From NCBI GenBank assembly GCA_013285945.1, contig JABDGP010000002.1, positions 1-64,000 on the forward strand: a DNA stretch of 64,000 bases, in the 5' to 3' direction. Below the pieces are notes generated by a model. It did no database searches, was not told where the DNA came from, and saw only the letters and a list, made by a program, of their open reading frames with translations. Below, piece after piece: positions 34,714-35,050 of the stretch. A program made the position numbers and the translations under genes. Origin of the DNA: Bacteroidota bacterium. Its GTDB lineage: Bacteria > Bacteroidota > Bacteroidia > Cytophagales > Cyclobacteriaceae. Every line of letters starts with the position of its first letter. Within the stretch, counting starts at the first letter, position 1.

Positions 34714-34801
34714 CCGATTTATAAAGAAGCGCGGAGAGACAGGCTCTACGAAGCGCTAGCAACCCCGAAAGGAAGGTGCTAACTCCTGAAATATAAACCG
34801 G
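34714..34801 (+). promoter_or_regulatory. SAM-I (S-box) riboswitch
   Basis: P1 is CCGATTTATA (34714-34723) with TATAAACCGG (34792-34801), nine of ten pairs. Inside are the conserved S-box blocks: GCGC...GCGC forming P2, the GGAGAGA-CA-GGCTCT kink-turn region, the AGCAACC core and the AGGTGCTAACTCC segment. The order and spacing fit the SAM-I aptamer in its Bacteroidota form. It precedes metY, metX and hom, genes of methionine synthesis, as expected for a SAM-sensing control element. The expression platform is unclear: no terminator hairpin with T-run directly follows, and a Cys-rich open frame starts nine bases after P1. Confidence 0.85.
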
Positions 34802-34810
34802 AAAAGTAAC

Positions 34811-34963
34811 ATGAAAACACAAATCATCTACCGATTGAACCATCAAGGCTCAGCTTCACTCGAAAATCTCAATCAATTTGTTTTTGCCCTGATTCAGCGA
34901 ATGCGTATTTGCCGTCAGTGCATTGCCATTTGTTGTGCGCCTGTCCAGGCGTGTTGTTGTTGA
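34811..34963 (+). CDS. Cysteine-rich leader peptide between the SAM riboswitch and metY
   Basis: An ATG nine bases after the riboswitch closing stem opens a 50-codon frame. The first 31 residues are unremarkable (M-K-T-Q-I-I-Y-R-L-N...), but the last 17 contain seven cysteines (positions 34, 37, 41, 42, 48, 49, 50) and the frame ends with three TGT codons directly before TGA. A hairpin CGCCT-GTCC-AGGCG (34938-34951) lies between Cys42 and Cys48. The metY ATG follows 87 nt later. By analogy with amino-acid attenuators and with the polycysteine small frames reported as cysteine-responsive attenuators in mycobacteria, this is probably a regulatory leader peptide; translation is not proven. Confidence 0.6.
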   Translation: MKTQIIYRLNHQGSASLENLNQFVFALIQRMRICRQCIAICCAPVQACCC

Positions 34964-35050
34964 GGAAATAAAACTCCTGACACAATACAAGCTGACTGAC
35001 TAGTCGTCGCTCCATTATTCCATTTTAAAAATCATTAAAACCCATACAAT

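Follow-up and report, generated by a model that had tools for sequence, protein, structure and literature searches.

A SAM-I riboswitch joined to a cysteine-rich upstream open reading frame forms a candidate two-input leader of metY in Bacteroidota

The window analysed here is a stretch of 64,000 nucleotides at the start of contig JABDGP010000002.1 (assembly GCA_013285945.1; Bacteroidota, Cyclobacteriaceae), part of a draft genome (G000) that is 77.7% complete. We found on its forward strand a SAM-I (S-box) riboswitch aptamer, which spans 34714..34801 including P1 and matches RF00162 at 34716-34799 (67.7 bits, E 1.3e-13; Rfam gathering score 44.4). P1 pairs 34714-34723 with 34792-34801, with a single A.C mismatch at 34717/34798, and after a gap of nine bases (34802-34810) it is followed by the ATG, at 34811, of an upstream open reading frame (uORF) of 50 codons (34811..34963, +) with the translation MKTQIIYRLNHQGSASLENLNQFVFALIQRMRICRQCIAICCAPVQACCC and then a stop; both its start position and its Cys-rich end recur in relatives. 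Cys occupies residues 34, 37, 41, 42, 48, 49 and 50, that is, seven of the last 17 including a terminal Cys-Cys-Cys, and Met is found at residue 31. The gene metY (O-acetylhomoserine sulfhydrylase; 35051..36373, +; TIGR01326, 675 bits) starts at 35051, 87 nt past the uORF stop, and is followed by metX (homoserine O-acetyltransferase; 36370..37413, +), which scores below the curated cut-offs of both TIGR01392 (358 bits, cut-off 500) and NF001209 (329 vs 331), and by hom (homoserine dehydrogenase; 37429..38655, +; NF004976, 332 bits vs 205). Among named records, the nearest to the window MetY are drafts labelled Bacteroidetes, Flammeovirgaceae or Cytophagales, next to which come Cyclobacteriaceae drafts and Chryseolinea. 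Upstream of the leader, a gene for a TPR-containing histidine kinase occupies 32841-34598. A second SAM-I riboswitch of the same genome, on contig 121 (164-278; L002), immediately precedes a metH-like gene and lacks a Cys uORF.

Within the uORF, a small hairpin, CGCCT-GTCC-AGGCG, is located at 34938..34951 (+) in the interval between Cys42 and Cys48; four of its pairs form in the predicted fold, and we describe it for the window only. The original prediction, made from the letters of this DNA, had proposed the aptamer upstream of metY with its two P1 strands, the 50-codon frame nine bases further on whose last 17 residues include seven Cys, this hairpin, and metY 87 nt past the stop with metX and hom behind it; family matches, coordinates and translation bear out each of these. 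Two further hairpins are predicted by folding, one at 34951..34988 (+), whose 5' arm would consist of the last Cys codons and the stop with the 3' arm downstream, and another at 34990..35011 (+), at the site of a covarying hairpin of relatives described below. Further upstream, a promoter-like sequence, TTTG-N20-TAnnTTTG (TACGTTTG), is an exact pattern match at 34652..34683 (+), which resembles promoters of the Bacteroidota type, and from which a transcript start would be expected at about 34690. Around four chance matches to this pattern are expected per 64 kb, and the window match alone is not significant. Across leaders, the 70 nt before the aptamer contain TAnnTTTG in 92 of 160 cases, compared with 5 of 160 control windows, and therefore aptamer and uORF probably share one transcript. 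The -7 and -33 promoter elements are mentioned in the part of PMC6847099 on which we draw.

We investigated how widely this arrangement recurs. Of 194 genomes in the host's order, 121 gave a MetY match at E <= 1e-150, and the DNA upstream of metY was taken from all 121 loci, a few of them shortened by contig ends, and scanned with an S-box covariance model built from 29 aptamers. An S-box was found at 85 of the 121 metY loci (53 + 32), including two (L111, L122) in which it lies ~1.1 kb upstream of metY, truncated by the locus edge or close to it, and possibly belongs to a different gene. An ATG-started ORF begins within the ~60 nt searched after the aptamer at 84 of the 85 loci, starting 7-11 nt past the aptamer end in 68 of the 84, with nine the commonest distance. 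At least three Cys among the last 14 residues were found at 66 of the 85 loci, spanning 9 families and 34 genera; where several ATGs occurred in the first ~60 nt, the one yielding the most terminal Cys was chosen, and taking the first ATG only gives 64 of 84. A second set drew on 80 named loci, 72 of them with an S-box; 116 family genomes had metY, and 22 newly added loci were used. Pooling gave 173 leaders, or 162 after removal of 11 identical ones, and a Cys-rich end is present in 133 of these 162 distinct leaders. Leaders with no ATG in the stretch searched were left out of the pool (L112 in the first set; L219, L235, L253, L257 and L278 in the second); in L112 and L253 a Cys-rich ORF has its start within the modelled aptamer, only just so in L112, a locus that comes in addition to the 66, and in L219 and L257 such an ORF lies at a greater distance. 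As for the background, at least three Cys in the last 14 residues occur in 79 of 3,998 ORFs, and at least three consecutive Cys in 6 of 3,998, compared with 117 of the 162 leaders. In the window itself, 571 ATG-started ORFs of 14-80 aa include six with at least three Cys in the last 14 and one with at least seven in the last 17, the uORF at 34811-34963 itself.

Upon closer examination, the ends of the uORFs vary, for example CCCCCCCCC in L093, RMRMCCCC in the Hymenobacter-like family f13 and KAMCCCC in family f2, which includes Bernardetia. Named genomes with the S-box and Cys uORF include Chryseolinea, Cesiribacter, Marivirga and Hymenobacter persicinus and, in Sphingobacteriales, Solitalea, Pedobacter frigiditerrae and the Mucilaginibacter loci that have an S-box; the metY locus of Pedobacter SYSU D00535 (L247) lacks both the S-box and a Cys frame. 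Fewer than three Cys in the last 14 residues were found at 18 of the 85 S-box metY loci, Algoriphagus-type loci included, and the Cys sensor is therefore dispensable; Algoriphagus-type and some other Cyclobacteriaceae genomes keep the riboswitch and the same ORF start position without the Cys run. In Chitinophagaceae-type loci, the Cys uORF starts ~146, 172 and 344 nt past the aptamer (L332, L257 and L219, respectively), and L234 has a Cys-rich frame before metY with no S-box found in 2.5 kb upstream; three of the Cys-rich uORFs of these four loci end in Met-Pro. This loose spacing indicates that the Cys module is separable from the riboswitch and that SAM control of the uORF start, as proposed below, is impossible in those loci, which possibly preserve the Cys module in its unlinked or ancestral form. 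A class-wide Rfam search, from which 30 loci were examined, gave 18 metH-like loci by eye, L332 at metY with its poly-Cys uORF far from the S-box, and L354 with a weak GTG-started frame.

Several leaders differ in layout. In family f11, uORFs of 13-17 codons with QQCM, RCCM or RCM follow the metY riboswitch (L139, L144, L145, L178) and are possibly a reduced form of the leader. Two S-box riboswitches occur within ~1.6 kb in L191 (555-666 and 2107-2223) and on contig 3 of G019 (L292); in G019 the upstream one lies before a cystathionine-gamma-synthase-like gene and is without a Cys uORF. Long gaps separate leader and metY in L064, L065, L187, L193, L196 and L214, amounting to ~600 nt or more in some relatives. 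In L064, a 145-aa ORF that is OsmC-family-like by eye lies in this gap (1006-1443), and the leader would therefore control that gene too.

Next, we examined selection at the level of codons. A tblastn search with the window peptide against the 194 genomes returned only itself as a convincing match, the next (E 7.8e-4) lying elsewhere in G093, and outside the Cys tail the uORF peptides of different families have no recognisable similarity; searches with the window peptide likewise gave nothing in Pfam and nothing credible in NCBIfam (one recR match, E 0.57). Given the lack of peptide homology by tblastn, conservation was tested through position and codon content. Across the 133 leaders, Cys makes up 40.0% of the last 14 residues versus 1.3% elsewhere in the peptide, and Met 8.9% versus 0.9%. 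In the last 42 nt, 40% of codons in frame are Cys codons, compared with 9.1% and 1.9% in the other frames, and Cys codon usage is mixed (508 TGT, 282 TGC). In 31 pairs of close relatives, which are not independent of one another, 19 of 49 gaps in the uORF have a length that is a multiple of three, compared with 18 of 182 downstream (Fisher p 7e-6). Changes at Cys codons in these close pairs were synonymous in 17 cases and not in 18, and substitutions at codon positions 1, 2 and 3 numbered 172, 154 and 195, a weak third-position excess.

Furthermore, the Cys run tracks the absence of CysE (serine acetyltransferase). CysE was counted as present at a cysE-model match of E <= 1e-40, a threshold of our own since no match in the order reached the curated cut-off; all 53 presumed CysE-negatives were searched a second time for the final table, L143 was dropped as its leader is cut by a contig end, and L092 in G082, with a partial CysE match, was counted as negative. 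Genomes without CysE, an apparent absence that may also reflect an assembly gap, have the Cys run in a ratio of 46:4 (run versus none), and genomes with CysE of 21:49 (p 3e-12). By genus majority, the ratios are 27:2 and 8:19 (p 9e-7), and stratification by family gives an odds ratio of 14.6 (p 0.005). The Hymenobacter-like family f13 is the main exception, with the Cys run in 13 of 15 CysE-positive genomes. In the genus of the window, G064 and G144, both rated 100% complete, have no good CysE match and encode a cystathionine-beta-synthase-type protein with otherwise no close cysteine-synthase-like match; a third relative in this genus, G173, has a CysE match with a second synthase-like gene adjoining. 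This suggests that genomes such as G064 and G144 may obtain cysteine from homocysteine, with MetY feeding both amino acids, in which case a Cys sensor on metY makes sense.

When extending the survey to other S-box loci in the host's order that are not at metY (n=56; 40 + 16), we find an ATG-started Cys-rich uORF at six of the 56, before metX, a Na+/H+-antiporter-family gene, three HPP-family transporter genes (an assignment that rests on L306, with not every member scanned) and cysH (PAPS reductase). At three more the Cys-rich uORF starts with GTG, before a TonB-dependent receptor gene, a second cysH and an amino-acid permease gene, and at four metX loci the uORF ends in just two Cys. Among the same 56, genes being assigned by eye, no Cys-rich uORF was found before metH, metK, hom, metB/cystathionine-gamma-synthase-like genes or cysK. 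A survey of cysH, in which 30 of 64 matches were examined, revealed an S-box at six of the 30, with a Cys-rich uORF at four of these six; the 24 cysH loci without an S-box have four weak Cys-containing frames and no comparable run. The SAM-I and Cys uORF pair precedes cysH in L324, L321, L356, L357, L374 and L381, with GTG as the uORF start in L321 and L374. Transporter and receptor loci with SAM-I and Cys uORF (L306, L307, L319, L288, L322, L312) suggest roles in the transport of sulfur compounds. The presence of the Cys module at metY, cysH and transporter loci, with none seen at metH or metK, places it on the sulfur-assimilation side, none having been seen on the methyl-transfer side, and, as in an attenuator, the regulatory amino acid fits the pathway of the downstream genes (metY, cysH and others).

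We also studied the RNA around the uORF start. P1 is rich in A and U, and relative to the uORF start its 3' strand occupies positions of about -10 to -17. The AUAAA of P1 belongs to the general S-box consensus, and therefore the fixed spacing of the ATG alone is independent evidence. The base A is enriched upstream of the uORF start, with a share of 0.70-0.77 at -14 to -12 and 0.57 at -3. In Flavobacterium johnsoniae, according to the passages of PMC6847099 used here, A at -3 acts positively and an A-rich motif lies near -12/-13, with no Shine-Dalgarno sequences.

Downstream, sites combining a hairpin with a T-rich stretch exceed shuffles (mean z -1.09, n=133), and the local leader fold is stable (z -1.31); the window's own leader fold is not significant (z -0.91), and for the Mucilaginibacter leaders RNAalifold did not produce a consensus structure. 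We also considered, and rejected, an output in which the metY start is masked, as a ribosome at the first Cys, a ribosome at the stop and an absent ribosome left the same predicted accessibility (108 leaders, p 0.30). Given that metY-start masking is unsupported and that hairpins with T-rich sites are in excess, the folding results favour transcriptional attenuation, either intrinsic or Rho-dependent, with neither preferred. Across leaders at large, the Cys run shows no general tendency to pair with downstream RNA (z -0.48 versus -0.39 in a control region); in a Chryseolinea-related clade, where the duplex is the counterpart of the hairpin predicted at 34951..34988, it has z -1.37 (n=34), with the Cys run pairing with a conserved downstream CAGCAACA.

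Upon alignment of 23 leaders of this clade other than that of the window, which differs in sequence at the second hairpin, 84.8% of cells in the Cys-run hairpin are paired, with no two-sided changes, and a second hairpin with an R-GUGAC loop is held in common. The alignment has 25 cells with two-sided changes versus 9.5 in shuffles (0 of 500 as high) and six pairs with such changes versus 4.6 (93 of 500 as high). These six pairs all belong to the second hairpin, and the figures are flattered by a structure drawn from the same sequences. The second hairpin, with a CUGCC-RRGUGACA-GGCAG core in many leaders, lies ~40-60 nt past the uORF stop, just after the Cys-run hairpin, and its GUGAC loop is seen in L064-L066, L185-L188, L193-L196, L198, L200-L205, L210 and L265-L268. 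It matched no Rfam family in the nine loci searched, and could serve as a terminator, as a binding site or in some other way.

Taken together, these results support a two-input cis-regulatory leader as the probable reading, in which SAM would gate the entry of a ribosome to the uORF and Cys-tRNA its exit, with metY as the output. In the SAM-bound state, stabilisation of the weak AU-rich P1 would block uORF translation. At low SAM the uORF would be translated, and the ribosome at the Cys codons would read the level of charged tRNA-Cys, and perhaps of tRNA-Met; under Cys shortage it would stall there and transcription would extend into metY. Smooth passage of the ribosome, or an untranslated uORF, would let the leader stop transcription by an intrinsic, Rho-dependent or other route, for which a riboswitch acting with a uORF and Rho has precedent in the material consulted from PMC12810186 and PMC11260477. 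The net logic would be that metY is on only if SAM and Cys are both low, and metY would need both signals because in many carriers sulfide appears to enter both amino acids through MetY. The original prediction had already interpreted the locus as two sensors in series, for SAM and charged Cys-tRNA, and had named a lack of conservation of the frame or of its Cys codons, among relatives that share the riboswitch, as one point on which it would fall; that conservation is found in 9 families and 34 genera, and additionally in Sphingobacteriales, and speaks for the interpretation. Beyond it go the enrichment of Met, the cysH and transporter loci with none seen at methyl-transfer genes, and the tracking of CysE absence. 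On balance, we lean towards a fuller version, in which the SAM-I expression platform would be the start of a Cys/Met-rich uORF, with the 3' strand of P1 doubling as the A-rich initiation region, the whole acting as a two-input NOR gate on metY, cysH and transporters that is kept mainly where MetY is the cysteine route, and with the covarying R-GUGAC hairpin as a third element in the Chryseolinea-related clade. The regulatory function of the leader is in this sense predicted, from comparison between genomes.

Other readings were weighed against this one. The same anatomy would serve a leader of opposite sign for Cys, in which a ribosome stalled at the Cys codons leaves the leader exposed and metY is switched off, sparing homoserine in sulfur shortage, and the sign of the Cys response does not follow from any computed structure. 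We consider this unlikely, as the run is commonest in genomes without CysE, where shutting off MetY under Cys shortage would be self-defeating if Cys comes from homocysteine, and as the known cysteine leaders sit before cys, cbs and cysS genes in the portions of PMC8632094 and PMC1262725 on which we rely. Instead of a sensor, the uORF could encode a functional Cys-rich microprotein, binding metal or sulfide or acting as a nascent-chain sensor, with a riboswitch that serves only its expression. Its usual length of 30-55 aa is long for an attenuator and the Cys tail is strongly kept, yet the peptides share no similarity across families outside that tail and the window peptide has no Pfam or credible NCBIfam match; the tail varies freely in length and order, from CCC to CCCCCCCCC with Met, Ile and Pro interspersed, and at the loci examined the uORF is followed in cis by sulfur genes or transporters, all of which makes a microprotein very improbable.

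Selection might also act on the RNA and not on codons, the UGU/UGC repeats being kept as a hairpin arm or a protein site, in line with the pairing of the Cys run with the conserved downstream CAGCAACA in the Chryseolinea-related clade. Against this stand the frame specificity (0.40 versus 0.091 and 0.019), the mixed use of TGT (508) and TGC (282), the frame-keeping gaps in the uORF and the lack of general pairing in other clades, which leave the RNA reading with a very slight probability. Finally, short ORFs with some Cys occur at a rate of ~1-2%, and a chance Cys-rich frame after an ordinary riboswitch could be imagined from one locus; with the arrangement at 66 of 85 loci in one order and at least three consecutive Cys in 117 of 162 leaders versus 6 of 3,998 background ORFs, the survey of metY leaders rules chance out for practical purposes.

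Overall, the two-input leader preferred here would combine two textbook devices, metabolite riboswitch and leader-peptide attenuator, in a single widespread switch, within a phylum where there has been little work on RNA regulation, and would offer a testable example of a riboswitch that gates a ribosome instead of a gene. It would also tie regulation to pathway wiring, with the Cys sensor retained chiefly in genomes that lack serine acetyltransferase and probably derive cysteine from homocysteine. Systematic annotation of Cys-rich short ORFs after S-boxes is possible and would flag sulfur genes.

Among the closest known systems are Cys leaders of mycobacteria, where poly-cysteine leaderless short ORFs reportedly act as attenuators (Canestrari et al. 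2020). Those ORFs are leaderless, whereas here the ORF follows the aptamer by ~9 nt, and the promoter-like sequence of the window ends ~130 nt upstream of the uORF ATG, the transcript start being predicted. As described in the relevant part of PMC1262725, Actinobacteria Cys leader peptides resemble the uORFs here in being short, with a Cys run near the stop, and in lying upstream of sulfur genes; no conserved terminator hairpin was detected in Mycobacterium there, and Rho is proposed. They differ in belonging to another phylum and in having no joined riboswitch described in that part, and Met codons are enriched in the present uORFs. In Rhodobacterales, uORFC-8-2 before cysS likewise has tandem Cys codons in a putative ribosome-mediated attenuator; it differs in having two Cys codons in an intrinsic-terminator attenuator, at another gene and in another phylum, with no riboswitch described in the passages at hand (PMC8632094). 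A SAM-I riboswitch in series with a tRNA sensor, upstream of metX and metY, is known from the tandem SAM-I/T-box(Met) arrangement, in which the second sensor is a T-box for tRNA-Met with nine examples in the excerpt cited (PMC9481103), whereas here it is a Cys uORF in 133 of 162 leaders. RF00162 was the sole Rfam match in the window at gathering thresholds, and nine loci searched in Rfam to E 1 gave, besides RF00162, one sub-threshold miRNA match and no T-box. Mycobacterial Mbox and B12 riboswitches also act on a uORF, and a further output by Rho-dependent termination is reported or proposed for them, but they respond to other ligands, and the sections used of PMC12810186 and PMC11260477 do not present the uORFs as sensors of amino acids. 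The Xanthomonas SAM-I riboswitch has a second, tRNA-related input as well, binding uncharged initiator tRNA; there, going by the text available from PMC7270179, the expression platform binds the tRNA directly and no leader peptide is described. Within Bacteroidota, the portions consulted report leader-peptide attenuation before amino-acid operons in general in a flavobacterial transcriptome (PMC9723704) and short ORFs in long leaders in a Bacteroides transcriptome (PMC7366714). A SAM riboswitch with a Cys leader, which the original prediction did not know to be described in Bacteroidota, appeared in no literature report among the matches listed, a search in which subscription journals lay mostly outside the scope. 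The parts are of known kinds, and the combination of SAM-I and Cys uORF appears to be both new and widespread.
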